In this document: in pieces, positions 6,082-25,667 of the stretch
Layout of the letters: each line of letters opens with the position of its first letter
Numbering within the stretch: the first letter of the stretch is position 1
Origin: Acidimicrobiales bacterium
GTDB lineage: Bacteria > Actinomycetota > Acidimicrobiia > Acidimicrobiales > Acidimicrobilacustridaceae
Direction of reading: 5' to 3'
NCBI GenBank assembly: GCA_025455885.1
Contig: JALOLR010000016.1
Coordinates: 1-34,024, forward strand
Length of the DNA stretch: 34,024 nucleotides
Program-made: the position numbers and the translations under genes
Notes under the pieces: generated by a model
What the model was told of the DNA's origin: nothing
The model's input: only the letters and a program-made list of their open reading frames with translations
Databases searched by the model: none

Positions 6082-6888
6082 ATGAAGCGCTTCGCCCTGT
6101 TGCTCGTCGCCTCGCTGGTGGCGGTGGGCCTGGTCCCGGCGGCCGCCGGCGCCGGCACCGCCGCCCCCGCCTCGGTCACGATCGTGCACGCCGCGACCTT
6201 CGGTTTTCCCGAAGGTGAGTTCGGAAGCGACTTCCCCGTGTACATCTGCGTCGACGGCGGCGACGTGTTCGAGACGGCGGCCGTCCTGGGTGACTCGTTC
6301 GGCCCGCTCGAGCTCCCGGCCGGCACCTACGACGTCGCCATCTTCCCCGGTGCCGAGTCCTGCCAGAGCAAGACCATCCTGGCCGACGAGGTCACGGTGG
6401 ACCCGGGTGACGACGTCACCGTCGCCGCCATCTACACCTCCCAGGGTCCGAGCATCGTGGTGTGGGACAACGACAGCAGCTGCTACGAGCCGGCGACGTC
6501 GTCGCGCCTCACGGTGCGCCACGGTGCCGCCACCGGCGGCCCGGTCGACGTCGTGGGCTTCGTCGACGGGTCCGAGACGAGGTCGACCATCATCAGCGAC
6601 CTCCCCGAGGGCGGCCAGCAGACCGAAGACCTGCCGGGTGGCACCCTCGCCGAGTTCGTCTCGGTGGTGCCGGCCGGTGGCGACCAGGTCTTCGTCCAGA
6701 TCCCCAGCGTCGAGTTCGAGGCCGGGCAGCACCTGGTGGTCTACGCCGCCGGTGGCGACGACGGCGCCGTCGGCGTGTTCGTCGAGCAGATCCCCATGGA
6801 GCCCTGCGAGGTCCCCGTCGACCCGACGACCCCGGCCCCGACCCCGGCCGCCGCGGCGGTGACCGCCGCTCCCCGCTTCACCGGCTGA
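6082..6888 (+). CDS. Secreted DUF4397 repeat protein with a PxFTG C-terminal tail
   Basis: 268 residues; the ATG follows AAGGAG by 7 nt. A Sec signal peptide is clear: MKRF, a hydrophobic core to about residue 20, and an Ala-rich cleavage region near 22-25. Two DUF4397-like units follow, the first beginning SVTIVHAA (31-38) and containing VYICVDGG (53-60), the second beginning SRLTVRHGA (141-149) with VDVVGFVDG (155-163). DUF4397 domains are beta-rich extracellular modules of unknown function. Cysteines at 56, 94, 134 and 242 could form disulfides after export. The C-terminus is a Pro/Thr/Ala linker (246-260) ending in PRFTG, a tail shared with the unrelated secreted protein at 24636-25667. 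Likely secreted or surface-held. Confidence 0.9.
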   Translation: MKRFALLLVASLVAVGLVPAAAGAGTAAPASVTIVHAATFGFPEGEFGSDFPVYICVDGGDVFETAAVLGDSFGPLELPAGTYDVAIFPGAESCQSKTILADEVTVDPGDDVTVAAIYTSQGPSIVVWDNDSSCYEPATSSRLTVRHGAATGGPVDVVGFVDGSETRSTIISDLPEGGQQTEDLPGGTLAEFVSVVPAGGDQVFVQIPSVEFEAGQHLVVYAAGGDDGAVGVFVEQIPMEPCEVPVDPTTPAPTPAAAAVTAAPRFTG

Positions 6889-6922
6889 GCGGTCGACCGA
6901 CCCTGCCCGACCTCGGTTCCGT

Positions 6923-6951
6923 CCGGTGCCCGCCCTCGGGGCGGGCACCGG
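6923..6951. terminator. Bidirectional hairpin between the DUF4397 and carD genes
   Basis: CCGGTGCCCGCCC (6923-6935) pairs perfectly with GGGCGGGCACCGG (6939-6951) across a TCG loop, a 13-bp stem. It sits between two convergent genes and can act on both transcripts. There is no T-run. I see no gene in 6889-7021. Confidence 0.75.
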
Positions 6952-7021
6952 CGCGTCCGGCCTCGTGCGGCGGGCTGCGTAGAGGCGACCGCGGAGCCGC
7001 TCCCGACGGAGCGGCGGTGGG

Positions 7022-7540
7022 TCAGGAGGTGACGGGGAGGCCGTCGAGGACGGCGTCGATGCGGTCGCCGGCGTCCTCCATCGTGGTGTCCCACGACACG
7101 GCCAGCTCGCTCACCAGGATGTGGCGGGCCTTGCCCAGCATCGCCTTCTCGGCGCTCGACAGCTTCGAGCTGCGCTCGCGCAGCGACAGGTTGCGCACCA
7201 CCTCGGCGCACTCGTAGATGTCGCCGGACTTCATCTTCTCCTGGTGGTTCTTGAAACGCCGAGACCAGTTGGTCGGCACGCGCACGTTGGTGACGGCCAG
7301 CACGGCCAGCACGTCCTCGACCTCGTCCTCCGAGATCGCCGGACGGACCCCGAGGTCCTCGGCGCGGTCCTCGGGCACGGAGACCTTCAGCGCCCCGCCC
7401 CGCCACGACTCCTCGCCGGCCGCCACCGAGAGCTCGAGGTAGGTGATCTTCTCCCCGTCGACCTTGCGCACCGAGCGACCGGTGACCACCGCGGTGCCGT
7501 GTGCCGGGTAGATGACCTTCGAGCCCACTTTGAAGTCCAT
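7022..7540 (-). CDS. carD: CarD-family RNA polymerase-binding transcription regulator
   Basis: 172 residues from the ATG at 7540-7538 (MDFKVGSKVIYPAHG), with an AAAGG site just upstream; the frame is open further but without homology. Residues 1-60 form the CarD/TRCF RNA-polymerase interaction domain, with the diagnostic VGxxVxYPxHG start. The C-terminal helical DNA-binding part holds PTNWSRRFKNHQEKM (89-103). Trp92 corresponds to the tryptophan that wedges into the upstream edge of the transcription bubble in mycobacterial CarD. CarD stabilises open complexes, notably at rRNA and housekeeping promoters, and is typically essential. Length and start match the actinobacterial family. CATACT (7573-7568, minus) is a candidate -10 element giving a short leader of about 20 nt. 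Confidence 0.96.
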   Translation of the reverse strand: MDFKVGSKVIYPAHGTAVVTGRSVRKVDGEKITYLELSVAAGEESWRGGALKVSVPEDRAEDLGVRPAISEDEVEDVLAVLAVTNVRVPTNWSRRFKNHQEKMKSGDIYECAEVVRNLSLRERSSKLSSAEKAMLGKARHILVSELAVSWDTTMEDAGDRIDAVLDGLPVTS

Positions 7541-7644
7541 GGGAGCCTTTCGCAGAACGGATCTCCAAGTATGCCCGGTCGCCACGCCGGTCACGCACGC
7601 CGGGGGACCCGGGGCCGGCTGCGCAACGGCGGGATCCGGAGCGA

Positions 7645-7657
7645 TTGCTGATAGCAA
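7645..7657. promoter_or_regulatory. TTGCT-GAT-AGCAA inverted repeat in the carD/MFS spacer
   Basis: Perfect 5-bp arms at 7645-7649 and 7653-7657 with a 3-nt centre, 33 nt before the proposed start of the MFS gene. It is in the usual size range for a dimeric repressor half-site pair. No regulator gene adjoins it, so the role is inferred. The remainder of 7541-7689 holds the carD promoter and no gene longer than nine codons. Confidence 0.35.
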
Positions 7658-7689
7658 GGCCGGGTGACGTCGACGGGTGGGCAGCAGCG

Positions 7690-8955
7690 GTGAACCGGGC
7701 CGCCGGCGACGAACCCGCATCGGAGCCGGTGAGCACGTTCGCGTCGCTGCGGGTGCTCGCCTACCGCCGCCTCTGGCTGGTCGGGCTCCTCGTCTTCCTG
7801 GCCGTCACCGCCCAGGCCATCGCCCGCGGATGGCTGGCCCGTGATCTGACCGGCACCAACGCCGGTCTCGGCGGGGTGCTGCTCGCCTTCGGCCTGGCCA
7901 TGTTGGTGGCCACGCCCTTCGGGGGAGTGGCCGCCGACCGCTTCCCCAAGCGGGCGGTGCTCGTCGTCGCCCAGCTGCTCCTGGCGCTGTCGTCGCTCCC
8001 GATCGGGATCGCCGTCCTCGTCGACGCCGCCCGGTACTGGATGCTGCTCGCCTCGAGCGCCGTGCAGGCCGTCGCGTTCGCGCTGTTCGGTCCGGCGCGC
8101 ATGGCCTACACCACCGAGCTCGTCGAGCGGCGGGTGCTGTCCAACGCCATCGTCCTCGGGCAGATGGGCGCCGAGGCCATGCGCATCATCGGGCCCAGCA
8201 TCGCCGGGATCGTGATCGCCGTCGCCGTGTGGGGCCTCGCCGCCGTGTTCATCGTCTGCGGCGTGCTGTGCCTCGTGGGCATGGCGCTGACGGCCATCCT
8301 CCCCCCCGGGCGTGCGCCCGCCGCCGGTACCCGACCGTCGCCGTTCGCCGAGATCGCCGAGGGCGTGCGCTACGTCTCGCGCCGTCGTGACCTGGCGCTC
8401 CTCGTCATGACCTCGCTCGCCGTCGTGATGGTCGGCTACCCGTACTTCGCCTTCCTCCCGTCGGTCGCCGACGGGATCTTCGACGAGGGCTCCGGCGGCT
8501 ACGGGATCCTGTCAGCGGTCTCGGCGGCCGGGGCGCTGGTCGGCGGGCTGGTGGCGGCGCGGGGTGGCTCCCGCCGGGACCCGTGGCGATTCGTGATGTT
8601 CTCCGGGTTCGGGTTCGGCGCCGGGCTCGTCGCCCTGGGACTCATGCCGCTGTTCGCCCTCGCCGCGCTGGCGCTCATGTTCATCGGGGCCTTCAGCCTG
8701 ACCTTCCAGACGATGACCAACTCGTTGCTGTTGAACCTCAGCGACTTCGAGTACCACGGGCGCATCCAGTCGCTCGTCATGCTGGGCTTCAGCGGGTTCG
8801 GCATCGCCGCCCTCCCGCTCGGGGCGCTGGCCGACCTGATCGGGCTGCGCACCACGCTCGTCGGGATGGGCACCGTGGTCATCGGCATCATGACGGTCTT
8901 CGTCGTGCGGCGCCGCCGCTTCAGCGACCGGGAGGTGGTCGCCGGGCTCGGGTGA
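7690..8955 (+). CDS. MFS transporter, EntS/MFS_3-like exporter
   Basis: 421 residues if the GTG at 7690 is the start; a TTG at 7645 would add 15 residues and is less likely. There are twelve predicted helices. GVAADRFPKRAVL after helix 2 is a clear MFS motif A, and RWGLARDLTG-type sequence follows helix 1 in the manner of the MFS_3 (enterobactin-exporter-like) group. The late segment FQTMTNSLLLNLSDFEYHGRIQS is also typical of that group, where this loop mentions integrity of a long helix. It probably exports a small molecule. A nine-codon open frame from GTG 7664 ends with TGA overlapping the proposed GTG start as GTGA, suggesting possible translational coupling. The next gene is convergent, only 15 nt downstream. 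Confidence 0.85.
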   Translation: MNRAAGDEPASEPVSTFASLRVLAYRRLWLVGLLVFLAVTAQAIARGWLARDLTGTNAGLGGVLLAFGLAMLVATPFGGVAADRFPKRAVLVVAQLLLALSSLPIGIAVLVDAARYWMLLASSAVQAVAFALFGPARMAYTTELVERRVLSNAIVLGQMGAEAMRIIGPSIAGIVIAVAVWGLAAVFIVCGVLCLVGMALTAILPPGRAPAAGTRPSPFAEIAEGVRYVSRRRDLALLVMTSLAVVMVGYPYFAFLPSVADGIFDEGSGGYGILSAVSAAGALVGGLVAARGGSRRDPWRFVMFSGFGFGAGLVALGLMPLFALAALALMFIGAFSLTFQTMTNSLLLNLSDFEYHGRIQSLVMLGFSGFGIAALPLGALADLIGLRTTLVGMGTVVIGIMTVFVVRRRRFSDREVVAGLG

Positions 8956-8970
8956 CCGGGCGGTCGGTGC

Positions 8971-9348
8971 TCAGCGCTCCCAGTCGACGCCGGCCAGGGT
9001 GGCCGCCCACGTCTCGGCGATGCGCCCGCCTTCGATGCGGTGGACGACCATCCACGTGAGCACCTGACGATCCTCGGTGGTGAGGTTCACCCCTCGGCTG
9101 GTGGCGCGGGTCCAGACCCGGTCGCCGGCGACCACCTCGTCGTCGATCGTGGTCTCGGCGCCGCGCAGCACGTGCATGGTCTGGGCGAGGCGCTGCTTGT
9201 ACTCCGCCCGTGAGATCCGCTCGGTGCCCAGGCTGGTGTGGCGGATGTAGGGATCGGTGCACAGCTCGTCGACGGCGTCGACGTTCCCGTCGCCCCAGAC
9301 CTCGGCCCACCAGCGTCGGACCAGGGCCCGTGAGGCGTCGGCGTCCAC
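8971..9348 (-). CDS. SnoaL/NTF2-like small protein
   Basis: 125 residues from a GTG at 9348-9346 (VDADASRALVRRWW). The pattern VRRWWAEVWGDGNVDAVDELC with PYIRH and then VWTRATSRG, MVVHRIEGGRIAETW fits the SnoaL-like polyketide cyclase / ester cyclase branch of the NTF2 fold (cone-shaped beta sheet plus helices). These proteins act as isomerases, cyclases, hydrolases or small ligand binders. The start is supported by TACACT (minus) ending 7 nt before GTG and the absence of a Shine-Dalgarno, so a leaderless message is likely. It lies 112 nt downstream of the P450 gene on the same strand; a shared substrate is possible but not shown. The longer open frame (to 9702) is antisense-like shadow inside the P450 gene. 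Confidence 0.8.
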   Translation of the reverse strand: MDADASRALVRRWWAEVWGDGNVDAVDELCTDPYIRHTSLGTERISRAEYKQRLAQTMHVLRGAETTIDDEVVAGDRVWTRATSRGVNLTTEDRQVLTWMVVHRIEGGRIAETWAATLAGVDWER

Positions 9349-9355
9349 GCCGCGG

Positions 9356-9361
9356 AGTGTA
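9356..9361 (-). promoter_or_regulatory. Leaderless -10 box for the NTF2-like gene
   Basis: TACACT on the minus strand with a 7-nt spacer to the GTG start at 9348. Confidence 0.45.
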
Positions 9362-9460
9362 GGCCGCCCCTGACCCCCGCCCGGGTGGCGGTCCCCGGGA
9401 CGGCGTCGCCGTCGGGTGGGTACGGCGCGAAGGCGACGTCGACAGCGGCTGACGCCGCGA

Positions 9461-10654
9461 TCAGAACCCGATGTGGACCTCGCCGTAGCCCCGGGTGAAC
9501 GTGGCCGGCACGATGCGGGGCTCGGGGTCGAGGAGCCGCCAGTCGGGAAAGCGCGCCAGGAGCTCCTCGAACAGCACCCGCAGCTCCAGGCGCGCCAGTG
9601 ACGCCCCGAGGCAGAAGTGGGTGCCGAACCCGAAGGCGACGTGGTGGTTCTGCGTCCGGGTGACGTCGTAGGTGTCGGGCTCGTCGAACACCCGCTCGTC
9701 ACGGTTGGCCGACCCGTACAGCAGCAACAGCTCGTCGCCGGCCTTCACGGACCGGCCGTGCAGCTCGGTGTCCACCAGCGCGGTGCGGCGCATGTTGCTG
9801 ATCGGCGTGACCCACCGGATGAACTCCTCGACGGCCGTCGAGCCGAGCAGGTCGGGGGAGTCGACCAGCGCCCGACGCTGCTCGGGTCGGCGAGCCAGCT
9901 CGACGAGGTTCCCGGCGATCACCGCCCGGGTGGTCTCGGCCCCCCCGTCGAGCACGAGCAGGGCCTCGGCCAGGATCTCGCCGTCGTCCCACGGCTGGCC
10001 GTGGACCTCGGTGTGGGCCCACACCGAGATGAGGTCGTCCCGGGGCTCGGTCCGCCGGGCGGCGATGACCGCCATCGTCTCGGCGGCGAACTCCATGATG
10101 GCGTCGATGCTCGCGCTCGACTGATCGGCGGGACTCCCGTCGGCCGGCGTCTGGCCGGCCTGGTACATCGTCACCTCCGACCACTCGCGCACCTTCGGCC
10201 AGAGCGAGGCGTCGTAGCCGAGCAGCTCGCAGATCACCATCGCCGGCAGGCGCGAGGCGATCATCTCGACCGCCTCGCAACCGCCGTCGGCCGACGCCTC
10301 GTCGAGGATGACCGTGACGAGGTCGCGAACCCGGTCCTCGTGGCTGCGCACCCCCCTCGGGGTGAAGCGTCGGGCGACGACCATCCGCTGGCGCTGGTGG
10401 GCGGGATCGTCACGGTTGATCATCGACGTGTCGTCGCGCTGGTCGGTCTTGGGCCGCGACCCGTCGAGGCTCGAGAAGCGCGCCGTGTCGTTCTCGACGG
10501 CCAGGACGTCGGCGTGGCGGGAGATCCCCCAGATCCGCTGCACCGGGTCCCAGAAGACGGGGTCCTCGTCGCGCAACCAGCGGTAGGCGTCGAACGGGTC
10601 GACGTACCACTCCGGATCGAGCAGGTTCACGTACGGCGTGGTGGTCGAGGTCAC
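9461..10654 (-). CDS. Cytochrome P450 monooxygenase
   Basis: 397 residues from the GTG at 10654-10652 after a GGGGGGA-type site; an ATG at 10699 would add 15 residues. All P450 hallmarks are present: I-helix oxygen-activation motif DGGAETT (236-242), K-helix ExxR (Glu277-Arg280), and heme loop FGFGTHFCLG with thiolate ligand Cys348. Size and lack of a membrane anchor mark a soluble bacterial class I enzyme that needs ferredoxin and ferredoxin reductase; neither is encoded nearby. The FGFGTHFCLGASLARLE form is widespread in actinobacterial CYPs acting on terpenoids, fatty acids or steroids, and the substrate cannot be called. A candidate CAGAAT -10 box lies upstream at 10703-10698 (minus). Confidence 0.93.
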   Translation of the reverse strand: MTSTTTPYVNLLDPEWYVDPFDAYRWLRDEDPVFWDPVQRIWGISRHADVLAVENDTARFSSLDGSRPKTDQRDDTSMINRDDPAHQRQRMVVARRFTPRGVRSHEDRVRDLVTVILDEASADGGCEAVEMIASRLPAMVICELLGYDASLWPKVREWSEVTMYQAGQTPADGSPADQSSASIDAIMEFAAETMAVIAARRTEPRDDLISVWAHTEVHGQPWDDGEILAEALLVLDGGAETTRAVIAGNLVELARRPEQRRALVDSPDLLGSTAVEEFIRWVTPISNMRRTALVDTELHGRSVKAGDELLLLYGSANRDERVFDEPDTYDVTRTQNHHVAFGFGTHFCLGASLARLELRVLFEELLARFPDWRLLDPEPRIVPATFTRGYGEVHIGF

Positions 10655-10760
10655 GGCATCCCCCCGGAGTCGGCAGGCCCTGGTCGGCCCGGCCCGCATT
10701 CTGGCAAAGCGGCGGCGACGGGGGCCGGTCGGGTCGGGCGCGGCGTGTGCGGGCCCGGGT

Positions 10761-11078
10761 TCAGCGGCGCGCCGACCGGGCGAGCGCGGTGAGCACCGCC
10801 GCCTCCTCCGGGTCGGCGTCGGGACCGTAGGCGGCCACGACGACCCCCTTCTCGCCCCAGGCCCCGCAGGTCACGCCGAGCACGATCGCCTCGTCGCCGG
10901 GATCGGTCGGCCCCTCGAAGCGGAACGTGTGGTCCACGCGCGCCTCGGTCGCGGGGTGCACGTCGTCGTGGCCGGAGGAGGCGATGCCGGTGGGGCAGAC
11001 CGTGTAGTCCTCGACGTAGCCCTGCGCGGCGAGGAAGGCGACGGCGTCGGTGACGGTCTCGGGAGCGGGCGTGGCCAT
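10761..11078 (-). CDS. Small conserved protein of unknown function
   Basis: 105 residues from the ATG at 11078-11076, with GAGGAGG about 6 nt upstream. That site overlaps the end of the upstream carboxymuconolactone-decarboxylase-like gene, so the two are surely cotranscribed (10-nt gap). The protein begins with a helix (TVTDAVAFLAAQGY), then DYTVCPTG, FRFEGPTDPGDEAIVLGV and KGVVVAAYGPDADPEE. No catalytic motif or membrane segment is visible; two cysteines (in VCPTG and VTCGA) are not in a CxxC pair. I recognise the sequence style from unannotated actinobacterial proteins but cannot name a function. Its tight coupling suggests it works with the gene upstream. Confidence 0.82.
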   Translation of the reverse strand: MATPAPETVTDAVAFLAAQGYVEDYTVCPTGIASSGHDDVHPATEARVDHTFRFEGPTDPGDEAIVLGVTCGAWGEKGVVVAAYGPDADPEEAAVLTALARSARR

Positions 11079-11088
11079 GGGGGCCTCC

Positions 11089-12033
11089 TCAGTCGAGGGT
11101 GAGGCCGTAGTGGGCCTCGCCGTCGGGCGTGATCTCGTAGATCTCGTACCCATCGGTGACGTGAGGCGTGTCGGCGGCGAAGGCCACGGCGATCTTGTTG
11201 GTGGCGTTGCGGGCCACGTCGAGGACGAGCTCGACCGTCGACGGCCCGTCGAGGTGGGCGCGCACCGCCTCGGTGACGCCCGGGTCGATCCGACCGGGGA
11301 GCCACACCATCGCGTCGGTGAGCCCCAGCGCCGCCTTGGTGGCCGGGGGGAGGTCGCTCGACTCGTAGCGCTCGACGGCCGCGAAGGTGGCGTCGTCGGC
11401 CCCGGCGAGCAGCGCGGGTCGACTCCGCAGCGACTGGCACAGCCGGCATCGGTGGGCGTTCGCACCCCGCAGGCGAACGAGCTCGGTCAGGACCGGATCG
11501 AGGTGCTCGAGACCGGGGACCACGTGGATGTAGGCGTCGATCGAGGCCCACAACCCCGGGTCGGGGGAGCCCACCGCCGGTGGGGGCCAGCCGGAGGACC
11601 CGAAGAGGGTGTCGAGCGCGGCCCGAACCCGGGGGATCATGTCGAGCGCCCATACCGCCTGCACGATGTCGCCGGTGGCCGCCCCCAGCGCCCCTCCGAG
11701 GCCGGCCCGCTCCTCGTCGTCGATCGTCGCGACGTCCACCGCGAAGTGCTCCGCGAAGGCGGCCGCCGTGCGGGCACGTTCGTCGAGATCGACGAAGTCC
11801 CGCCACCGGGTCGGGTCGCGGCCGACCCACGGACCCGGGCCGAGCGCCTCGGGCCGTCCGAGTGGTGCGAGGCCGTGGGCGGCGGCGGTGACCCGGGCCA
11901 GGAGGTCGACCGTGTCGACGTCGTCGAGCCCGACGGCCGTCGCCCACACGGTCTCCTCCACGGTCACCAGGGCGGCGCCCGCCGCCGCCGCCCAGGTGTC
12001 GAGCGCCTTTCGTCCGTCGGTCGCGGTGCCCAT
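11089..12033 (-). CDS. Carboxymuconolactone decarboxylase / AhpD-like protein
   Basis: 314 residues from the ATG at 12033-12031, preceded by a GGGGGGA-type site. The diagnostic motif is ANAHRCRLCQSLRS (191-204): His194 with Cys196-x-x-Cys199, the redox-active pair of the AhpD-like fold, followed by ATKAALGLTDAM (231-242). The N-terminal 170 residues form a second mostly helical region, so the chain is about twice the length of minimal AhpD-like proteins. Members act as alkyl-hydroperoxidases or carboxymuconolactone decarboxylases. The CRLCQ form favours a peroxidase-like, thiol-based reaction, but this is inference. It is first in a two-gene unit with the 105-residue protein and divergent from the gene at 12139. 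Confidence 0.85.
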   Translation of the reverse strand: MGTATDGRKALDTWAAAAGAALVTVEETVWATAVGLDDVDTVDLLARVTAAAHGLAPLGRPEALGPGPWVGRDPTRWRDFVDLDERARTAAAFAEHFAVDVATIDDEERAGLGGALGAATGDIVQAVWALDMIPRVRAALDTLFGSSGWPPPAVGSPDPGLWASIDAYIHVVPGLEHLDPVLTELVRLRGANAHRCRLCQSLRSRPALLAGADDATFAAVERYESSDLPPATKAALGLTDAMVWLPGRIDPGVTEAVRAHLDGPSTVELVLDVARNATNKIAVAFAADTPHVTDGYEIYEITPDGEAHYGLTLD

Positions 12034-12124
12034 GACGTTCCCCCCGGTGAGACCTGTGGGGCGAACTGTGGCACGTGGCGCTCCGGCGCGCGGCGCGCAC
12101 CGCGTCGGGTCGTGGGCCGGGCGG

Positions 12125-12130
12125 TAGGGT
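12125..12130 (+). promoter_or_regulatory. Leaderless -10 box for the reductase at 12139
   Basis: TAGGGT with an 8-nt spacer to the ATG at 12139. There is no Shine-Dalgarno. It lies in the 105-nt divergent spacer. Confidence 0.5.
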
Positions 12131-12138
12131 CCCCCGCC

Positions 12139-13215
12139 ATGGCTCATCGAGTGGTGGTGTGGGGAACGGGCAACGCAGGTCGGCCGGCGATCCGGGCGGT
12201 GGCCGCCCACCGGGACCTCGAGTTGGTGGGGTGCGTGGTGTCGAACCCGGCGAAGGTGGGTCGCGACGCAGGGGAGCTGGCGTTCATCGACGACCTCGGG
12301 GTGGTGGCCACCGACGACGTGAGCATCGCCCTGGCCGACGACGTCGACTGCGTCGTCTACACCGCGACCGCCGACACCCGTCCGGAGCACGCCGTCACGG
12401 ACCTGCTGCGGTGCCTCCAGTCGGGGCGCAACGTCGTGTCCACGTCCTTCTACCCGCTGCTCCACCCGCCCAGCGCGCCGAAGGAGGTCCTCGACGTCGT
12501 GCTGCCGGCGTGCGAGGCCGGGCAGTCGTCGGTGTTCGTGTCGGGCATCGATCCCGGGTGGGCGTTCGACATCCTCCCCGGCCTGGTGAGCGGCGTGGGA
12601 GCCGGCATCACCGAGATCCGGATGCAGGAGGTGTTCAACTACGCGCTCTACGACGCTCCCGAGGTGGTGCGCGAGGTCATCGGCTTCGGCGGGTCGATGG
12701 ACGACCTGCCGCTCATGCTCCTCGACTTCTCCCTGCAGATGGTGTGGGCGCCGATGGTCCGCATCGTGGCCGAGATGCTCGAGTTCGAGCTCGACGAGAT
12801 CGTGACGACGGTCGAACGGCGGGCGCTGGAGCGCACCATCGACGTGCCCGGGATGGGCCGCTTCGACGAGGGCACCCAGGGCGCGTTCCGCTTCCAGGTG
12901 CAGGGGATCGTCGAGGGTCGGCCGCTGGTCATCGTCGAGCACATCACCCGCATCGACGACGCCTGCGCGCCGGACTGGCCCTCGTCGTCGTCTCCCGGGG
13001 GCGAGCACCGCATCGTGATGTCCGGTCACCCCGAGCTGACGGTGAGCGTGCACGGCGTCGAGCACGGCGAGCCGGGCGCGGCCGGGGGCGGGAACGCCAC
13101 CGCGGCCAACCGCATCGTGAACGCCATCCCCGCGGTGGTCGCCGCCCCGCCCGGGCTGGTGAGCCCGCTCGACCTCCCGTTGATCACCGGCGCGGCGCAG
13201 GTCCGTCGGGGCTGA
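12139..13215 (+). CDS. Dihydrodipicolinate-reductase-like NAD(P)-dependent oxidoreductase
   Basis: 358 residues from the ATG at 12139. The N-terminus VVVWGTGNAGRPAIRAV holds the GxGxxG Rossmann loop (residues 9-14), followed by ELVGCVVSNPAKVGRDAGEL, the same layout as DapB-like reductases. It is clearly longer than lysine-pathway DapB (about 245-270 residues) and lacks the HHxxK-type catalytic signature, so it is not a DapB. The group is known in mycobacteria and relatives as dihydrodipicolinate-reductase N-terminal-domain proteins, some near steroid or amine catabolism genes; 2,4-diaminopentanoate-dehydrogenase-like activity is one relative. The acidic C-terminal half (GFGGSMDDLPLML) is conserved in this group. 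Substrate unknown. Confidence 0.85.
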   Translation: MAHRVVVWGTGNAGRPAIRAVAAHRDLELVGCVVSNPAKVGRDAGELAFIDDLGVVATDDVSIALADDVDCVVYTATADTRPEHAVTDLLRCLQSGRNVVSTSFYPLLHPPSAPKEVLDVVLPACEAGQSSVFVSGIDPGWAFDILPGLVSGVGAGITEIRMQEVFNYALYDAPEVVREVIGFGGSMDDLPLMLLDFSLQMVWAPMVRIVAEMLEFELDEIVTTVERRALERTIDVPGMGRFDEGTQGAFRFQVQGIVEGRPLVIVEHITRIDDACAPDWPSSSSPGGEHRIVMSGHPELTVSVHGVEHGEPGAAGGGNATAANRIVNAIPAVVAAPPGLVSPLDLPLITGAAQVRRG

Positions 13216-19087: not shown

Positions 19088-19139
19088 CGAACTGTTGAGT
19101 CCCCAGCTCGCCGAGGCGAGCTGGGGACTCAACAGTTCG
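19088..19139. repeat. 52-bp perfect palindrome (25-bp arms)
   Basis: The left arm at 19088-19112 (starting CGAACTGTTGAG) and the right arm at 19115-19139 (ending CTCAACAGTTCG) are exact reverse complements, separated only by GA. As RNA it would be an exceptionally strong hairpin; as DNA it could extrude a cruciform or be a REP-like element. It lies 66 nt after the LLM stop and 86 nt before the SDR start. Its A/T content (AACTGTTGA) is unlike the surrounding GC-rich spacer, which suggests an inserted module rather than a plain local terminator. Confidence 0.9.
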
Positions 19140-19159
19140 GTCGGGGAGTTCGGTCGGGG
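19134..19159 (+). repeat. 13-nt tandem duplication abutting the palindrome
   Basis: AGTTCGGTCGGGG occurs twice in direct succession (19134-19146, 19147-19159); the first copy includes the last 6 nt of the palindrome's right arm. The rest of 19160-19225 contains the SDR ribosome site and no gene. Confidence 0.85.
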
Positions 19160-19225
19160 AGGTGGTCGGGCGGGTGACAGGGTGGTGACCGGCGCAGGGG
19201 CGCGCCGACGACGACGGAGGGACCG

Positions 19226-19996
19226 ATGGGCCAGCTGGACGACAAGGTGGCGGTCATCACCGGTGCCGGTCGGGGCATCGGCGCGGCCATCGCCGTTCGC
19301 TACGCAGCGGAGGGGGCGACGGTCGTGGTCTCGTCGCGCACCGGGTCCGAGCTCGAGGCCACTCTGGCGACGGCAGGGCTCGACCGTCATCGGGGCCTGG
19401 CGGTGGTCGCCGACGCCACCGATCGCCACGACGCCCGACGCCCCGTCGTCGAGGCCCTCGCCCGCTTCGGTCGGGTCGACATCGTCGTCAACAACGTGGG
19501 GGGCACGATCGGCGACAACGACCCCTTCCGGGCCGACGACGCCGCGTTCGAGGCCACCCTGGTCCTGAACCTCACGTCGGCGTGGTGGACCACCAGCGCC
19601 GCGCTCCCGGCCATGCGCGAGCAGGGCTACGGGCGCATCATCAGCATCGGATCCGGCACATCGAAGACGACCGGGGCCTCGTTGCCCTACACCACCGCCA
19701 AGCACGGCCTCGTCGGCTTCACCAAGGAGCTGGCCCGCGTCGTCGCCCCCCACGGCATCAACGTGAACCTCCTCTGCCCGGGATGGACGCGGACCTCGCT
19801 CGTGGACTTCGAGCGGATCGCCGCTTCCCGGGGCACGACGCCCGCCCAGGAGGAGGCGCGGGCGGCGGCGGAGAGCCTGCAGCGCCGCATCCTCGACGCC
19901 GAGGAGCTCACCGGGATGGCCACCCTCCTCGCCGGGCCCGACGGACGGGGCGTGACCGGCCAGGTGATCAGCGTCGACGGCGGCTACAAGGTCTGA
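19226..19996 (+). CDS. Classical short-chain dehydrogenase/reductase
   Basis: 256 residues, the standard length of classical SDRs, with GGAGGGA before the ATG. Motifs: TGAGRGIG (12-19), VVNNVGG (87-93, a common NNxGG variant of NNAG), Asn115, Ser143 in ISIGSG, and catalytic Tyr155-x-x-x-Lys159 in YTTAK, then NLLCPGWTRT and TGQVISVDGG. It catalyses NAD(P)-dependent oxidation or reduction of a hydroxyl/keto group. VSSRTG (35-40) after the second strand suggests NADP, but not firmly. It may be expressed alone because the palindrome precedes it. Its last 13 bases overlap the convergent carboxylesterase gene. Confidence 0.92.
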   Translation: MGQLDDKVAVITGAGRGIGAAIAVRYAAEGATVVVSSRTGSELEATLATAGLDRHRGLAVVADATDRHDARRPVVEALARFGRVDIVVNNVGGTIGDNDPFRADDAAFEATLVLNLTSAWWTTSAALPAMREQGYGRIISIGSGTSKTTGASLPYTTAKHGLVGFTKELARVVAPHGINVNLLCPGWTRTSLVDFERIAASRGTTPAQEEARAAAESLQRRILDAEELTGMATLLAGPDGRGVTGQVISVDGGYKV

Positions 19997-21477
19997 CCGA
20001 CGTCGTCCCAGTGGCGGCGCAGGTCCCCGTCCGGGTCGGTCACGACCTCGATCCGGTCGTCGAGGACCAGGGTCGCCCGGGCGTCGTAGTAGCGGGGCCA
20101 GTCGATCCCGGTGCTGGTCGGACGGCCGTCACGGGCGAGCGACGACCACAGGCCCCGGATCGTCGTCGACAGCCGAGCGGCACCGGTGGGGTCACCGAGG
20201 AACTCGCCCCACCCGGAAGTGTCGGTCGAACCGAACGGGAACGGGATGTCGACACCGTGGCAGGCGCCAAGGGCGGGGTCGGCGGCGGGTCGGTCGAAGC
20301 GGTACATCCACACCGGGGCGTGCCGTGCGTGGGCCTCGGCGATGCGAAGGGCGGGCAGCCACATCTGGGTGTCGGTCTGCACCCGCGACCAGATCGCCGG
20401 CGCGGTGTCGACACCGGCTGCCCGGTAGAGGGCCACGGTGGCCGCGGGGTCGGCCACGCCGAGGCGCCCGAGCCGTCGGGCGAGGCGGTCGTCGTCGAGC
20501 GAGCCCGACGACGGGTCGAGCCCGGCGAACAGCGCCATCTCGTCCCGGGTCGTACCGATGACGAGGGGCACCGGGTTCGTGCCGAGCCGTGCCGCGTCGA
20601 GCCAGGAGTGGGGGAGGACCTCGCCGTCCACGCAGGGATGGAACGGCATCGTGCCCACCGTCGCGAACAGCGCGGCGGCGGCGCGGGCCTGGGCGGCCAC
20701 GACCTCGGGTCCGGGCAAGGCGCGCAGCGCGTCGAGGTCGTCGACGTCCACGCCGGCGGCCTGCGCGAACGCCCCGGCCACGAGCCGGGCGCGATCCCGG
20801 TCGAGCAGCAGGTCGGTGGCACCGCTCTGCACGACGGCGCGGTGGACGAGGCCCTTCGCCGCAGGCATGGCCAGCAGCGACAGGACGCTCCCCGCCCCGG
20901 CGCTCTCGCCGAAGACCGTGACGCAACCGGGGTCGCCACCGAACACGGCGATCTCGTCGCGCACCCACTCCAGCACAGCCACCTGGTCGAGGAGGCCGAC
21001 CTCGGCGACGGCGCCCTCGAGGCTCAAGAAGCCGAGAGCCCCGAGGCGGTAGTTGAACGTGACGACGACCACGTCGCGCTCCGCGGCGAGCAGCGCCCCG
21101 TCGTAGACCGGCAGCGACCCGGCGCCCAGGCTGAACGCCCCACCGTGCACCCACACCATCACCGGGCGCCGCCCGTCGTCGGACGCCGGCGTCCACACGT
21201 TCACCGACAGGCAGTCGTCGCCCTGATCGGGAGCACCCATCCCGGGCACCAGGCCGTCGAGCGGCCCTCCGCCCGGCTGCCAGCACGCCGGTCCGAAGGC
21301 CGTCGCGTCGCGCACCCCGGTCCACGGCCGACGTCGTTCGGGCCGGTCCCATCGTCGGGGCCCGACAGGGGGCTCGGCGTACGGGATGCCCAGGAACGCC
21401 GCCGCGCCGCCGCCGACGCGGCCCCGCACCGCGCCGCGGCTCGTCCGGGCTACCGGCCCCCGCTCTTCGTGCGTCAT
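19984..21477 (-). CDS. Type-B carboxylesterase (alpha/beta hydrolase)
   Basis: 497 residues from the ATG at 21477-21475, with TACGGT 8 nt upstream and no Shine-Dalgarno; the longer open frame to 22365 lies antisense to the aldolase gene. Type-B esterase motifs: GIPYAEPPVGPRRW (30-43), DCLSVNVWTP (88-97), oxyanion HGGAF (111-115), nucleophile elbow FGESAGAGS with Ser192, acid Glu313 in GTTRDEMALF, and His407 in ACHGVDIPF. Length and order match para-nitrobenzyl-esterase-like bacterial enzymes. No signal peptide is seen, so it is cytoplasmic. It hydrolyses carboxylic esters, and could activate or detoxify an ester substrate of the nearby catabolic genes. It ends 13 bp inside the convergent SDR gene. 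Confidence 0.93.
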   Translation of the reverse strand: MTHEERGPVARTSRGAVRGRVGGGAAAFLGIPYAEPPVGPRRWDRPERRRPWTGVRDATAFGPACWQPGGGPLDGLVPGMGAPDQGDDCLSVNVWTPASDDGRRPVMVWVHGGAFSLGAGSLPVYDGALLAAERDVVVVTFNYRLGALGFLSLEGAVAEVGLLDQVAVLEWVRDEIAVFGGDPGCVTVFGESAGAGSVLSLLAMPAAKGLVHRAVVQSGATDLLLDRDRARLVAGAFAQAAGVDVDDLDALRALPGPEVVAAQARAAAALFATVGTMPFHPCVDGEVLPHSWLDAARLGTNPVPLVIGTTRDEMALFAGLDPSSGSLDDDRLARRLGRLGVADPAATVALYRAAGVDTAPAIWSRVQTDTQMWLPALRIAEAHARHAPVWMYRFDRPAADPALGACHGVDIPFPFGSTDTSGWGEFLGDPTGAARLSTTIRGLWSSLARDGRPTSTGIDWPRYYDARATLVLDDRIEVVTDPDGDLRRHWDDVGQTL

Positions 21478-21485
21478 CGGCGGCG

Positions 21486-21491
21486 ACCGTA
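21486..21491 (-). promoter_or_regulatory. Leaderless -10 box for the carboxylesterase
   Basis: TACGGT on the minus strand with an 8-nt spacer to the ATG at 21477. It lies 13 nt from the divergent TAGGGT box of the aldolase gene. Confidence 0.5.
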
Positions 21492-21503
21492 GCGCCCACC
21501 TCC

Positions 21504-21509
21504 TAGGGT
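21504..21509 (+). promoter_or_regulatory. -10 box for the aldolase-amidohydrolase pair
   Basis: TAGGGT with a predicted start near 21516, giving a 25-nt leader that contains GGGGGGAGGA before ATG 21541. The two -10 boxes of this divergent 63-nt spacer point outward and are close enough to interfere. Confidence 0.5.
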
Positions 21510-21540
21510 GGGAGCCTCGATCATCCGGGGGGAGGACCGC

Positions 21541-22383
21541 ATGACGATCAGCGCCGGCCCGCCACGGGGCGACACCGCAGCGCACCCGGGCATCGTCGAG
21601 GGCGAGGCGCCGGCCGGCCTCACCCTGTCCGAGGGGGGGGCGGCGGTGTGGTCGCCCTCGATCACCCCCGGCATCGGCGTCGACCTCGACGAGCGCCAAG
21701 CCCTCGCCTGTGCCTTCCGGATCCTCGCCGCCCACGACTTCGTCGAGAACATCGCCGGCCACATCACCTGGGCCCCCGAGGGGCACGAGTCGATGTGGGT
21801 GAACCCGTGGGGGCTGTGGTGGGACGAGATCCGCGCCTCGGACATCTGCCGGGTCGACGGCGAGGGCACCGTGGTGGAGGGTCGATGGGACGTCACGCCG
21901 GCGTTCCACATCCACACCGAGCTCCACCGCCGCCGGCCCGACGCCCGGGTCGTGGTGCACAACCACCCGTACCACGCCGTCGTGCTGGCCGCCCTCGGCC
22001 TCGTGCCGGAGTTCCTGCACCAGCAGTCGTCGATGTACGACGGCGACATCGCCCTCGTCGACGAGTACTCCGGCGAGATCGACTCCCCCGAGCTCGGCGC
22101 CGACCTCGCCGAGCGGATCGGGGACGCCTCGGTGGTCATCCTCGCCAACCACGGCGTCGTCGTCACCGCCCCCGGCATCGAGGAGGCGACCTACAAGGCG
22201 GCCACCCTGGACCGGCAGTGCCGGCTGATGCTCGACGTGGTGACGTCGGGCCGCGCCGCCACCACCGTCCCCGCCGTCACCCGCCCCGCCATGAAGGCGT
22301 CGCTGCTCGAACGGGGCACCGAGGTCTTCTGGGCCGGCGCCGTCCGCCGGCTCCTGCGCGACCAACCGGAGGTCCTCACGTGA
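21541..22383 (+). CDS. Class II aldolase/adducin-family protein
   Basis: 280 residues; the ATG at 21541 follows GGAGGA. Zinc ligands are visible as VVHNHPYH (138-145; His140 and His142) and ILANHGV (200-206; His204), the normal pattern of class II aldolases such as fuculose-1-phosphate aldolase. The family's usual catalytic Glu would be in the N-terminal part (FVENIAGHITWAPEG region). The first 45 residues are a low-complexity leader. Family members cleave or form C-C bonds of sugar phosphates or decarboxylate keto-acids; proteins of this type next to amidohydrolases also occur in aromatic and polyketide-like catabolism. It overlaps the next gene by 4 nt (GTGA), so the two are translationally coupled. 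Confidence 0.9.
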   Translation: MTISAGPPRGDTAAHPGIVEGEAPAGLTLSEGGAAVWSPSITPGIGVDLDERQALACAFRILAAHDFVENIAGHITWAPEGHESMWVNPWGLWWDEIRASDICRVDGEGTVVEGRWDVTPAFHIHTELHRRRPDARVVVHNHPYHAVVLAALGLVPEFLHQQSSMYDGDIALVDEYSGEIDSPELGADLAERIGDASVVILANHGVVVTAPGIEEATYKAATLDRQCRLMLDVVTSGRAATTVPAVTRPAMKASLLERGTEVFWAGAVRRLLRDQPEVLT

Positions 22384-23645
22384 GCATCAGCATCGACGAT
22401 CTGGCCGCCAACGGCGACTTCACGACCGGCGGGAAGTCGAAGACCGGACGGGTCACCTTCCTGCCCGAGCCCGAGCGTCGGGCGCGTCGGTACACGATCA
22501 TCTCCGCCGACGACCACATCGTCGAACCCCCCGACACCTTCGCCGGTCGGGTTCCCGGGGCCCTCGCCGACCGGGCCCCCCGTGTCGTGGAGAAGGAGGA
22601 CGGGTCCGAGGTGTGGGCGTACGACGGCCAGGAGTTCCCCAACGTCGGGTTCAACGCCGTGGTCGGCCGTCCCGTCGACGAGTACTCGTTCGAGCCCGCC
22701 CGCTTCGACGAGATGCGACGCGGCGCCTGGGACATCGACGCCCGGGTGGCCGACATGGACCTCAACGGCGTCTACGCCAGCGTCAACTTCCCCTCCTTCC
22801 TGCCCGGCTTCGCGGGGCAGCGCCTCCAGCTCACCACCACCGACGCCGACCTGGCGCTGGCCACCGTGCGGGCCTGGAACGACTGGCACCTCGAGGCCTG
22901 GGCGGGCGCCCACCCCGACCGCATCATCCCCTGTCAGATCCCGTGGCTGCTCGACCCGGAGGTCGCCGCCGCCGAGGTGCGCCGCAACGCCGAGCGCGGC
23001 TTCAAGGCGATCACCTTCAGCGAGGCGCCGCACATGCTCGGCCTGCCCACGCTGCACTCCGGTCACTGGGACCCGCTGATGGCCGCCTGCGCCGAGACCG
23101 GCACCGTGGTGAACCTCCACATCGGTTCGTCGGGCACCTCACCGGCGACCGCCCCCGACGCCCCTCCCGACACGGTGGGCGTGCTGTTCTTCGGCTACGC
23201 CATGTTCGCGGCCATCGACTGGCTGTACTCGATGCTGCCGGTGCGGTTCCCCGACCTGAAGCTGTGCATGAGCGAGGGGGGCATCGGGTGGGTGGCGGGG
23301 CTCATGGACCGCCTCGACCACATGCTCGGCTACCACGACATGTACGGCACCTGGGTGGGCACCGATCTCACACCGGCCGAGGTGCTGGCCCGCAACTTCT
23401 GGTTCTGCGCGGTGGAGGACCCCTCGGCGTTCGTCCAGCGCGAGCGCATCGGGGTCGGCAACATCCTCCTCGAGAGCGACTACCCCCACTGCGACTCCAC
23501 CTGGCCGAACACCCAGGAGATCGTCCACCGTGAGATCGGCGACCTGCCCGCCGACGACATCGCCGCCATCACCTGGCGCAACGCCGCCGAGCTCTACCGC
23601 CACCCGGTCCCGGCGGAGGTGCAGGCGGATCCCGAGGCGTACTGA
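22380..23645 (+). CDS. Amidohydrolase-family (amidohydro-related, ACMSD-like) metal enzyme
   Basis: 421 residues from the GTG at 22380, which overlaps the aldolase TGA as GTGA and has GGAGGT 7 nt upstream. The metal-binding start is ISADDHIVEPPDTF (41-54; Asp45, His46), with further sites VVNLHIGSSG (243-252; His247) and NILLESDYPHCDST (361-374; Asp367). SEGGIGW (298-304) is typical of the Amidohydro_2 / ACMSD-like branch, which includes decarboxylases of aromatic or enol acids and hydrolases. In actinobacteria this style (D-D-H with E-S-D-Y-P-H) accompanies catabolic clusters for steroids and aromatics. It probably acts on the product or substrate of the coupled aldolase. Confidence 0.9.
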   Translation: MSISIDDLAANGDFTTGGKSKTGRVTFLPEPERRARRYTIISADDHIVEPPDTFAGRVPGALADRAPRVVEKEDGSEVWAYDGQEFPNVGFNAVVGRPVDEYSFEPARFDEMRRGAWDIDARVADMDLNGVYASVNFPSFLPGFAGQRLQLTTTDADLALATVRAWNDWHLEAWAGAHPDRIIPCQIPWLLDPEVAAAEVRRNAERGFKAITFSEAPHMLGLPTLHSGHWDPLMAACAETGTVVNLHIGSSGTSPATAPDAPPDTVGVLFFGYAMFAAIDWLYSMLPVRFPDLKLCMSEGGIGWVAGLMDRLDHMLGYHDMYGTWVGTDLTPAEVLARNFWFCAVEDPSAFVQRERIGVGNILLESDYPHCDSTWPNTQEIVHREIGDLPADDIAAITWRNAAELYRHPVPAEVQADPEAY

Positions 23646-23680
23646 GCCGGTCGCCGTCGAGCCTCGTGGAGGCCGGCCGG

Positions 23681-23686
23681 TAGCGT
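23681..23686 (+). promoter_or_regulatory. Leaderless -10 box for the SDR at 23693
   Basis: TAGCGT with a 6-nt spacer to the ATG at 23693, despite the gene lying only 47 nt after the amidohydrolase stop. Confidence 0.5.
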
Positions 23687-23692
23687 TCGGAG

Positions 23693-24541
23693 ATGGACGA
23701 TCTCGAGGGGAAGGTCGCCGTCGTCACCGGTGCCGGCAGCGGCATGGGGCGGGCGATGGCCGAGCGATTCGGTGCCGCGGGGATGCGTGTGGTGGTCGCC
23801 GACATCGAGCAGCCGACGCTCGACGAGACGGTCGACGCCGTCCTCGGCACCGGCGGGACCGCCATCGGCGTGCGGACCGACGTGTCGTCGGCGGAAGACG
23901 TCGAGCACCTCGCCGGTGCGGCCTACGACGAGTTCGGGGCGGTGCACCTGGTGTGCGCCAACGCCGGGGTGTTCAGCGGCGGTGTGGTGTGGGAGCGGCC
24001 GGTGGCCGACTTCGAGTGGACGATGGGTGTGAACCTCTTCGGGGTCGTGCACGCCATCCGCTCGTTCGTCCCCCGCATGATCGAGGGCGGTGAGCGGGGG
24101 CACTTCGTGACCACCGCGTCGATGGGCGGCCTGGTCACCAACGCCTACTCCGGGCCCTACTACACGTCGAAGTTCGCCGCTGTCGGCCTCACCGAGTGCC
24201 TGGCCCACGACCTCGCCGCGGCCGGTGCCCCCATCGGGGTGTCGTGCCTCGTACCGAGCCTCGTGGCCACCGGCATCGGCTTCTCCGAGCGCAACCGACC
24301 CGAACGCCACGTCGACCGGCTCCATCCCGACCCGACCCCCGACGCCGAGTTCGTGACCGCCGCCATCCGCGACGCCACCGCGTCCGGGATGGCGCCCGAG
24401 GAGGTCGCCGACCTCGTGCTCGACGCCGTGCTCCACGACCGTTTCTGGATCCCCACCAAGCCCAGCTACCACGACCAGATCCGGGGTCGGCACGACGACA
24501 TGCAGGCCCTGCGCCTGCCGACCTCGCCCTCGTTGGACTGA
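23693..24541 (+). CDS. Short-chain dehydrogenase/reductase
   Basis: 282 residues, slightly longer than classical SDRs. Motifs: VTGAGSGMG (11-19), VVVADIE (33-39; Asp37 after strand two favours NAD), CANAG (88-92), Asn114, Ser143 in TTASMGG, and catalytic Tyr156-x-x-x-Lys160 (YYTSK). The C-terminal part (APEEVADLVLDAVLHDRFWIPTKP) is the extra helix of the subgroup often called SDR family NAD(P)-dependent oxidoreductase in steroid/aromatic degraders. It may oxidise an alcohol made by the aldolase, P450 or Rieske steps. The start has no Shine-Dalgarno; it follows the aldolase-amidohydrolase pair and may be served by both read-through and its own -10 box. Confidence 0.91.
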   Translation: MDDLEGKVAVVTGAGSGMGRAMAERFGAAGMRVVVADIEQPTLDETVDAVLGTGGTAIGVRTDVSSAEDVEHLAGAAYDEFGAVHLVCANAGVFSGGVVWERPVADFEWTMGVNLFGVVHAIRSFVPRMIEGGERGHFVTTASMGGLVTNAYSGPYYTSKFAAVGLTECLAHDLAAAGAPIGVSCLVPSLVATGIGFSERNRPERHVDRLHPDPTPDAEFVTAAIRDATASGMAPEEVADLVLDAVLHDRFWIPTKPSYHDQIRGRHDDMQALRLPTSPSLD

Positions 24542-24571
24542 CCCTCGGTCGGGGTCGCCGACGACCGAGGG
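24542..24571 (+). terminator. Hairpin after the SDR gene
   Basis: CCCTCGGTCG (24542-24551) and CGACCGAGGG (24562-24571) form a 10-bp stem with a 10-nt loop, starting right at the SDR stop. It is placed to end the plus-strand unit and possibly the convergent secreted-protein gene. Nothing else is seen in 24572-24635. Confidence 0.65.
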
Positions 24572-24635
24572 CCGACCCCCGGTGGGAGCCGGCCCTCGAC
24601 GTCGGAACGGATCGGTTCCCCGGAGGGGCGCGGTG

Positions 24636-25667
24636 TCAGCCGGTGAAGGCGGGTGTCACCGAGACGGCCTGGGCGGCGGGCGCCGTCGTCGTCGGGGGAG
24701 TCTCCGGGGTGGGCGGCGGGGTGGGTGCGGTCGGCGGGATGGCCAGCAGCGTGATGTCGGCGTCGGCGGGGTCGATGTCGGCGATGACCGTCGTCGTGCC
24801 GGTGGCCGGGTCGAAGGTGGCCAGCGCGCTGCCGAGGGCCTGCGTGCTCGAGCCGACGGGGAAGTTCGGCTCGCCGATGATGGCGAAGCCGAAGGTGCCG
24901 GCGCAGTCGTACCCGACCGGGAAGTCGCTGAGGGCGGGCCCGTCGGTCAGCTCACCGGAGGTGGGGTCGATGAAGCCGACCTCGGGCTCGAACACCGTCG
25001 GCGTGCTCTCGGCGATCGCCTCGCGCTCTCTCGGCAACACCACGGTGACGACGCCGGCGTCGCACGCCGCCAGGCCGAACATGGTCTGCTCGAAGGTGTC
25101 GGTGGGGCCGACCAGGGTGGCGACACCGGTGGTCGGGTCGATGGTCCAGAGGCAGTTCTGGCTGGCCTCGTCGCACGAGTCGGACGCGAACAGCGCCCAC
25201 ACGGTGCCGTCGGGGGTGATGGCCAGGCCGCCGTCGGGCAGGAACGCACCCTCACCGAGGTCGGCGATGTCGATGACGACCTCGTCGACCATCGCGCCGG
25301 TGGTGGGGCTGAAGGCCCGCAGCCGGAGATCGGAGGCGGCCTGCGGGGCGAACGAGTCGACCTCGAGCACGGGGAGATCGATGCCGGGGTCGTCGTCCAG
25401 CTCGGCGATGCCCCACACGGTGCCGTCCGGGGCCACGGCGAGGTCGTTGACGCAGGCGTCGTCGCCGGCGGCGGCCGGAAGGGGGGTGACCACACCGGTG
25501 GCGAGGTCGATGGTGGACAGGCGGCAGCCGTCCACCTCGTCGGACACCACCGTGTAGCCCGTGGTGGGCGGGGCGGTCTGCGACGAGACCGGGGACGCCG
25601 GCAGGACGGTGGCGGTCGCGGTGAGCAGCAGCGCTGCGGCACCAGCCTTCAGGACGGTTCTCAGCAT
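24636..25667 (-). CDS. Secreted propeller-like protein with a PxFTG C-terminal tail
   Basis: 343 residues; the ATG at 25667-25665 has GGGAGG 9-11 nt upstream. A signal peptide is clear: MLRTVLK, hydrophobic AGAAALLLTATATVL, cleavage near residues 24-30. The mature part has repeated short strands with L-x-x-I-D-x-x-T-G, TPDGTVWALF, DPTTGVATLVG and FDPATGTTTVI units, the pattern of blade repeats (SMP-30/NHL-like or quinoprotein-like propellers), though blades are irregular. Several cysteines occur as possible disulfides. Residues 310-330 are a Pro/Thr linker, and the end is VTPAFTG. That tail matches the DUF4397 protein at 6082-6888 in 8 of the last 13 positions. A TAGCGT -10 box (25706-25701, minus) gives a leader of about 27 nt. 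Confidence 0.85.
   Translation of the reverse strand: MLRTVLKAGAAALLLTATATVLPASPVSSQTAPPTTGYTVVSDEVDGCRLSTIDLATGVVTPLPAAAGDDACVNDLAVAPDGTVWGIAELDDDPGIDLPVLEVDSFAPQAASDLRLRAFSPTTGAMVDEVVIDIADLGEGAFLPDGGLAITPDGTVWALFASDSCDEASQNCLWTIDPTTGVATLVGPTDTFEQTMFGLAACDAGVVTVVLPREREAIAESTPTVFEPEVGFIDPTSGELTDGPALSDFPVGYDCAGTFGFAIIGEPNFPVGSSTQALGSALATFDPATGTTTVIADIDPADADITLLAIPPTAPTPPPTPETPPTTTAPAAQAVSVTPAFTG

Follow-up and report, generated by a model that had tools for sequence, protein, structure and literature searches.

Why should two exported proteins of unrelated fold end on the same few residues? The question is raised by a 34,024-nucleotide stretch of an Acidimicrobiales bacterium (assembly GCA_025455885.1, contig JALOLR010000016.1, positions 1 to 34,024; hereafter the window), in which a DUF4397 protein of 268 residues (Pfam E 4e-13) and a propeller-like protein of 343 residues both close with the tail P-x-F-T-G, the stop codon following directly on Gly. 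The answer proposed here, to which we give a probability of about 0.5, is that the tail serves to attach exported proteins to the cell wall, with no membrane segment, through an L,D-transpeptidase of the YkuD type. Homologues that carry sortase-type anchors at the place of the tail, and YkuD genes that adjoin tail genes, are the observations that lead to it.

The two C-termini, AAAAVTAAPRFTG in the DUF4397 protein and AAQAVSVTPAFTG in the propeller-like protein, agree at 8 of 13 positions. A preliminary description of this DNA had reported the shared tail together with a Pro/Thr linker before it and a signal peptide on each protein, and all of this holds up: the translations contain P/T/A-rich stretches ahead of both tails, and a sequence heuristic finds both N-terminal signals. 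It had also set the tail apart from LPxTG, correctly, as neither a helix nor a basic tail follows the motif and both proteins end on Gly. The propeller-like protein (a DUF4394 match is weak and below the Pfam cut-off) has no lysine beyond residue 45; a plus-strand reading of its interval was rejected, the gene being on the minus strand. The idea that such a tail would be a sorting, anchoring or processing tag gains support from an excess among exported proteins, from sortase-type anchors at the equivalent place in homologues, from matches to a family named choice-of-anchor Q and from YkuD adjacency.

A terminal tail on exported proteins

Across the 3.29-Mb window genome (G000; genomes are cited by G labels and examined stretches by L labels), P-x-F-T-G followed by a stop or W has 30 matches, versus 1 for the reversed pattern. 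Two of these read Trp and one (L030) is a 72-residue open reading frame (ORF) without an export start; the remaining 27 close ORFs whose stop-to-stop lengths range from 139 to 775 codons. An export-signal-like start is found in 25/27 of them versus 117/663 other genes (P 2.7e-16), by a loose rule of crude hydrophobicity and charge applied to gene calls from a home-made codon model and covering about a quarter of the genome; this is the excess among exported proteins that the preliminary description had suggested looking for in the source genome. Two tails fail the rule (the ORF in L098, and L103), and the accepted start in L090 is doubtful. Under a stricter rule, 18 tail-less proteins pass in the 422 kb made up of tail surroundings and window; by eye, 7 of them show a lipobox and most others look cytoplasmic, and two proteins look exported and tail-less (L100 9977-11977 and L109 4849-5304). 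In 380 kb away from tails, tail-less exported proteins include cell-wall enzymes with SLT, NlpC/P60 and VanY domains (L268, L269, L271).

Tail codons vary in the window genome (TTC/TTT, ACC/ACG/ACT, GGC/GGA/GGT/GGG), with ACA also in use among relatives, and conservation is thus on the protein and not on the DNA. A compositional accident of Pro/Ala/Thr-rich ends is a practically negligible explanation: the linkers are indeed of low complexity, but the count against the reversed pattern, the varied codons and the terminal FTG shared by acidic (f12) and basic (Thermoleophilia) linkers all speak against it.

The motif was drawn from 79 tail proteins called in the examined stretches, which were selected by P-x-[FY]-T-G and so end on Gly by construction. 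Position -7 is A, V, L or I in 68/79, position -6 is most often T (30) or A (14), position -4 is R in 34, A in 14 and T in 10, and Y replaces F in 2 (L247, L249), which suggests a core of [A/V/L/I]-x-P-x-[F/Y]-T-G-COOH. Linkers depend on lineage: those of the window genome are P/T/A-rich, G258 frequently shows P-L-x-P-x-F-T-G, and linkers are acidic in f12 (...VDEA..GSPLFTG) and basic in a Thermoleophilaceae metagenome-assembled genome (MAG; ...KPRRKAAPRFTG). Variants occur as well: G110 has A at -5, with 10 matches beginning GC versus 1 in the control, 8 of the 10 resembling exported tail proteins, and G028 has VITFTG twice and PRFVG once. The tail-bearing proteins are of many types, including beta-helix, PKD, Ig-like, propeller, neocarzinostatin, subtilase, DUF4397 and, weakly, GDSL-lipase-like. 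One in the window genome (L106:9398-10018) combines a PqqD-like domain with an internal twin-arginine-like hydrophobic segment; another (L146:306-974, G145), ending ...LPNFTG, has a ubiquitin-like called start, and one of the 79 matches the ubiquitin family (Pfam, E 4e-22).

At least 9 tail matches were found in 15/296 genomes of the class, namely 7 of the 8 from the window genome's own family, 7 of the 12 from f36, and G258. Own-family counts exceed the control in all 8 sampled genomes (5-36 versus 0-2, the eighth genome having 5), and the seven f36 genomes have 9-35; in a sample of 296 genomes from across the phylum, few others clearly exceed their control, as judged by counts and no statistical test. 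Tail proteins were also read in f8-g51, f47, f49, f50, f11, f12-g29, f7 and Thermoleophilia, with an A-x-F-T-G form in f9, and exported PRFTG proteins occur in named records from several Acidimicrobiia, one Solirubrobacteraceae and one Thermoleophilaceae MAG. As far as sequence can tell, exported proteins bear this tail in Thermoleophilia and in further Acidimicrobiia families as well.

Several candidates were discarded. Matches in non-actinobacterial records look by eye like short or antisense ORFs; the G096 matches read and the first four G211 matches read are not tails (three real G211 tails lie elsewhere); and the single stop-ended match of G072 (L470), which lacks an export start, is doubtful. 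G299 and G305, whose match coordinates coincide with those of G044 and G218, are probably duplicates of them. A record titled Bifidobacterium breve GH-07nov19-52 (L200) is a tail-bearing contig from a genome with 14 matches versus 0 in the control; the title may be wrong.

Exchange with sortase-type anchors

Four DUF4397 proteins of the window genome end P-x-F-T-G. DUF4397 is also present in 17/57 searched genomes with no or few tails, where, by reading, 10 have tripartite-signal ends, 4 have no anchor and 3 were left undecided. The tripartite ends consist of x-T-G or alike (e.g., VPTG, VNTG), a helix and a basic end, those of G096 and G273 being the least typical, and several of the genes adjoin a small sortase. 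In G142 (L292/L302), a DUF4397 match and a small-sortase-like end were called as a single open frame. A scan for related loci using a DUF4397 alignment found nothing.

The choice-of-anchor Q family (NCBIfam) is named for its exchangeable C-terminal anchors. It is matched by 8/79 tail proteins and was found in 24/50 genomes searched. In tail genomes 12 members were read, of which 8 have a terminal P-x-F-T-G at 12 to 42 residues beyond the domain, 2 end VITFTG, 1 ends PRFVG and 1 (G220:C58) continues tail-less for more than 500 residues; the member of G110 ends AATFTG. In tail-less genomes the domain is followed by LPxTG and a helix in G199, G002 and G027, and elsewhere by nothing or by another domain. 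Swapping of C-terminal tails among homologues has been described (PMC3237569). In both DUF4397 and choice-of-anchor Q homologues the tail, as read in translation, occupies the place of a predicted sortase signal, and its reading as a tail for surface sorting that lacks a membrane segment is well supported.

The main rival explanation is that the tail is a sortase signal minus its membrane helix, cut between Thr and Gly by the conserved class E sortase encoded next to cytochrome c biogenesis (ccm) genes. We consider this unlikely. The T-G pair is retained; the two LPxTG-type proteins read in window-genome stretches are LPFTG and LPYTG; and the class E profile is matched by 15/15 genomes with at least 9 tail matches (E <= 1e-10). 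Some tail-rich genomes, moreover, have a sortase and no convincing LPxTG protein: the top LPxTG matches of G028, G044 and G064 read as membrane proteins, and for G060, G076, G119 and G218 the verdict is by score only. A precedent is the streptococcal AbpA: sortase B anchors this protein, whose LPKTS-AVK end lacks a helix (PMC4974636).

Set against this, the class E profile also matches 217/281 other genomes and so does not discriminate (98/296 genomes exceed the curated cut-off), while G211 and G169, with 3 and 2 tail genes, have no class E match at E <= 1e-10, and PF04203 finds nothing in two other f12 genomes. The Pro-Thr spacing is one residue longer than in LPxTG, and of 67 sortase-like matches in 61 examined loci none lies closer than 4 kb to an accepted tail gene; none at all was found in tail stretches L089-L128 and L239-L258. 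Counts of LP[FY]TG do not track tail counts, there being none in the tail-bearing G060, G064, G103 and G258 and 11 in G083; taken as a test for a sortase specificity common to both signals, the counts show no co-occurrence. A sortase as sole partner is weakened by G211 and G169 and by the lack of nearby sortase-like matches. PF04203 sortases occur in 50/56 genomes, tail-bearing or not (G103, 87% complete, has none); a sortase was found in the majority of tail genomes tested, and the main one matches class E and adjoins ccm genes.

Many of the ccm-locus class E enzymes in L141-L159 carry two additional helices at the C-terminus and terminate in LPxxY or alike, features also seen in L129 of G036, a tail-less genome. 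In the tail-bearing G023 the sortase gene is broken by an in-frame TAG (L158:9641-10627), and in the window genome a second sortase adjoins an LPFTG protein in what by eye appears to be a phosphate-transport (pst) operon (L156, G000:C12:71000-82927).

A YkuD transpeptidase beside tail genes and its possible chemistry

A partner search by recurrent tail-gene neighbours (996 genes) returned, in at least 3 genomes, families that look like housekeeping by eye; the transpeptidase came to light only through reading of single-tail and tandem-tail loci. When six YkuD proteins were searched by tblastn against 478 loci (3.17 Mb with overlaps counted twice, much of it chosen around tails), the subfamily appeared at 9 loci, spread over 8 genomes of which two are closely related. 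Every locus is beside a tail gene, and no copy was found apart from tails in this DNA; the sole other YkuD gene seen (L254) is of a different type and lies some 7.4 kb away from a tail. The preliminary description had advised a search for a co-occurring protease or transpeptidase family, and this subfamily is a candidate of that kind. Besides the window-genome locus (Table 1), G211 and G169 have a YkuD lipoprotein beside tandem tail genes, each genome having one tandem cluster; G149 and G079, each with a single tail gene as judged by P-x-F-T-G, have the YkuD gene upstream of it and convergent with it, respectively; and further loci are two in one Solirubrobacteraceae genome, one in the Thermoleophilaceae MAG and one in G298, where about 0.4 kb separates the YkuD gene from the tail. 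Genomes with a single rhombosortase target were likewise recognised through gene neighbourhood (16/21; PMC3237569), and the single-tail and single-cluster genomes with an adjoining YkuD gene offer a similar clue.

Among called genes, 5/6 YkuD genes are adjacent to a tail gene versus 134/1724 genes overall (P 1.5e-5; leaving out the second f12 genome, 1.6e-4), a count that includes the G149 tail gene by hand, as its frame is broken. We relied on this gene-level test instead of one at locus level. The G149 gene (L111:8202-9306) is interrupted between its export part and its tail. The neighbouring enzyme has a YkuD domain above the Pfam cut-off; its model (pLDDT 78.8) is closest in fold to Bacillus subtilis YkuD, and the catalytic-motif H, S, G, C and R are invariant in the alignment of 9 sequences. 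The Acidimicrobiia examples are lipoproteins by lipobox. A working label of SH3-like for the N-terminal part was dropped, as it rests on an R-P-N-x-x-x-G-[WF] stretch and Pfam reports only YkuD. On gene neighbourhood, this L,D-transpeptidase is the best candidate for the tail enzyme.

Several points weigh against that assignment besides the hand-added gene and the choice of the searched DNA largely around tails. Gene neighbourhood does not equal catalysis. The locus-level adjacency test gave a Fisher P of 0.08, with small loci and a linker-composition filter that misplaced three basic-linker Thermoleophilia tails. Tail-rich genomes have few tail genes beside the enzyme (1/27 in the window genome); the tail gene of G139 (L450, with one further match unread) has no YkuD enzyme within 1.5 kb, and L236, the third tail gene of the Solirubrobacteraceae genome, has no YkuD neighbour in the stretch seen. 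The H of the S-H-G-C motif is replaced by N or A in the window-genome and G149 enzymes and kept in the other seven. Finally, in the YkuD protein-wall linkages described in the papers cited here, the protein is the amine acceptor and not the acyl donor (PMC12729407, PMC12274547).

If the transpeptidase does act on the tail, events might run as follows. The tail protein would be exported, as the N-termini suggest, and the flexible linker, P/T/A-rich in the window genome, would display a free C-terminus. The enzyme could then accept -Thr-Gly-COOH as it does the -DAP-D-Ala-COOH end of the tetrapeptide stem (DAP, diaminopimelic acid), with Gly as an achiral stand-in for D-Ala; Gly would be released, a Thr thioester would form, and the Thr carbonyl would be transferred to an amine of the wall, probably that of DAP. 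L,D-transpeptidases cleave DAP-D-Ala at the free end of the tetrapeptide, so that D-Ala leaves and an amine receives the carbonyl, and they also swap terminal D-Ala for Gly (PMC10434034, PMC8649774). Mimicry of the stem end by Thr-Gly would account both for a protein that ends on Gly and for the missing helix.

Lysine content bears on which group could be joined. Lysine is absent beyond residue 45 in 27/79 tail proteins, where linkage through a lysine side chain is impossible and the N- or C-terminus is left; it is absent from the last 40 residues in 61/79. Lysine avoidance as a sign of selection was rejected, since tail proteins, though lysine-poor, show no significant difference from 11 lipoproteins (P 0.5). 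The N-terminal choice would have the L,D-transpeptidase attach the mature N-terminal amine, as in Coxiella beta-barrel proteins, while the tail merely docks. Ala-Gly and Gly-Gly N-terminal linkages are known (PMC12729407), and Ala or Gly follows a crude cleavage site in 31/69 proteins with a site found; yet Ala or Gly after a signal peptide is ordinary and the conservation sits at the extreme C-terminus, which makes this account quite improbable. We rate as improbable, too, that the transpeptidase is a bystander and that the tail acts as a non-covalent ligand of a surface receptor, or else marks proteins for protection or processing. A binding pocket would be well suited to a free C-terminus in which few residues are fixed, and upstream residues differ among lineages as in co-evolving pairs, but names read by eye reveal no obvious receptor among recurrent neighbours, and both the transpeptidase neighbourhood and the exchange with sortase anchors would be left unexplained.

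Taken to its full extent, wall attachment by the transpeptidase would amount to peptidoglycan-mimic sorting in two actinobacterial classes: Thr-Gly would imitate DAP-D-Ala, and a dedicated L,D-transpeptidase would link whole-protein acyl donors to the wall by their C-termini, filling the role of a sortase without a membrane-retained signal. This fuller picture is possible and put forward tentatively. Even the tail as such would place at the surface many proteins from Acidimicrobiia and Thermoleophilia that lack annotation. Should the transpeptidase prove to be responsible, mimicry of a cell-wall peptide would be a way of joining proteins to the wall. A drug-target family would then have a new use, and the tail might serve as a minimal tag for protein ligation.

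Table 1. Features of the two window proteins and the YkuD locus of the window genome (window positions unless a stretch is named)
Feature	Position	Strand	Basis
Exported DUF4397 protein, 268 aa, tail-bearing	6082..6888	+	Translation, Pfam; export start heuristic
Signal peptide region, DUF4397 protein, end approximate	6082..6153	+	Heuristic only
Pro/Thr/Ala-rich linker upstream of DUF4397 protein tail	6826..6870	+	Translation
Tail P-R-F-T-G + stop codon	6871..6888	+	Pattern match
Exported propeller-like protein, 343 aa	24636..25667	-	Translation, Pfam; export start heuristic
Signal peptide region, propeller-like protein, end approximate	25578..25667	-	Heuristic only
Pro/Thr/Ala-rich linker upstream of propeller-like protein tail	24654..24710	-	Translation
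Tail P-A-F-T-G + stop codon	24636..24653	-	Pattern match
YkuD gene, window genome	L102 6511-7302; tail gene 7491-7826	Same (minus) strand, 188 bp apart	tblastn

Relation to known sorting systems

The main explanation for covalent display of proteins on Gram-positive surfaces lies in sortases and tripartite signals, and type IX secretion depends on a conserved C-terminal domain of about 80 residues. No type IX domain name appears among the 25 of 72 NCBIfam families listed for the 79 tail proteins, no search aimed at that domain having been made. C-terminal sorting signals are of a known kind, and an example free of a membrane segment is known in AbpA (PMC4974636). What appears new is a Gly-ending tail on about 27 predicted exported proteins of one genome, some such proteins being encoded beside YkuD, which points to an undescribed form of surface attachment; a literature search, judged by titles and abstract openings and with subscription papers outside its scope, found no publication on such a tail.

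The LPxTG/sortase system is alike in being C-terminal, in its exported proteins, linker and Thr-Gly pair, and in the many proteins per genome, and homologues carry either signal. Unlike LPxTG (TIGR01167), the tail is P-x-[FY]-T-G in the 79 proteins, with Pro displaced by one; it has no membrane helix or basic residues, ends on Gly and has no sortase near its genes. AbpA of oral streptococci shares a helix-less wall sorting signal beside a transpeptidase gene (PMC4974636), but that signal is LPKTS-AVK on one protein, whereas the tail is on many, ends at Gly and has YkuD as its neighbour, not a sortase. GlyGly-CTERM and PEP-CTERM (PMC3237569), and also MYXO-CTERM, are C-terminal tags of many exported proteins, brought out by genome comparison and swapped among homologues; in them the motif is followed by a helix and basic residues, whereas nothing follows the tail motif. 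Alike in enzyme family are Braun lipoprotein and OutB (PMC12274547, PMC12729407), which likewise involve YkuD enzymes and a short C-terminal box, with a covalent wall link there and a gene neighbourhood here. There the amine of a C-terminal lysine is the acceptor; the tails described here end on Gly and are mostly lysine-free, so that their C-terminus would be the donor.

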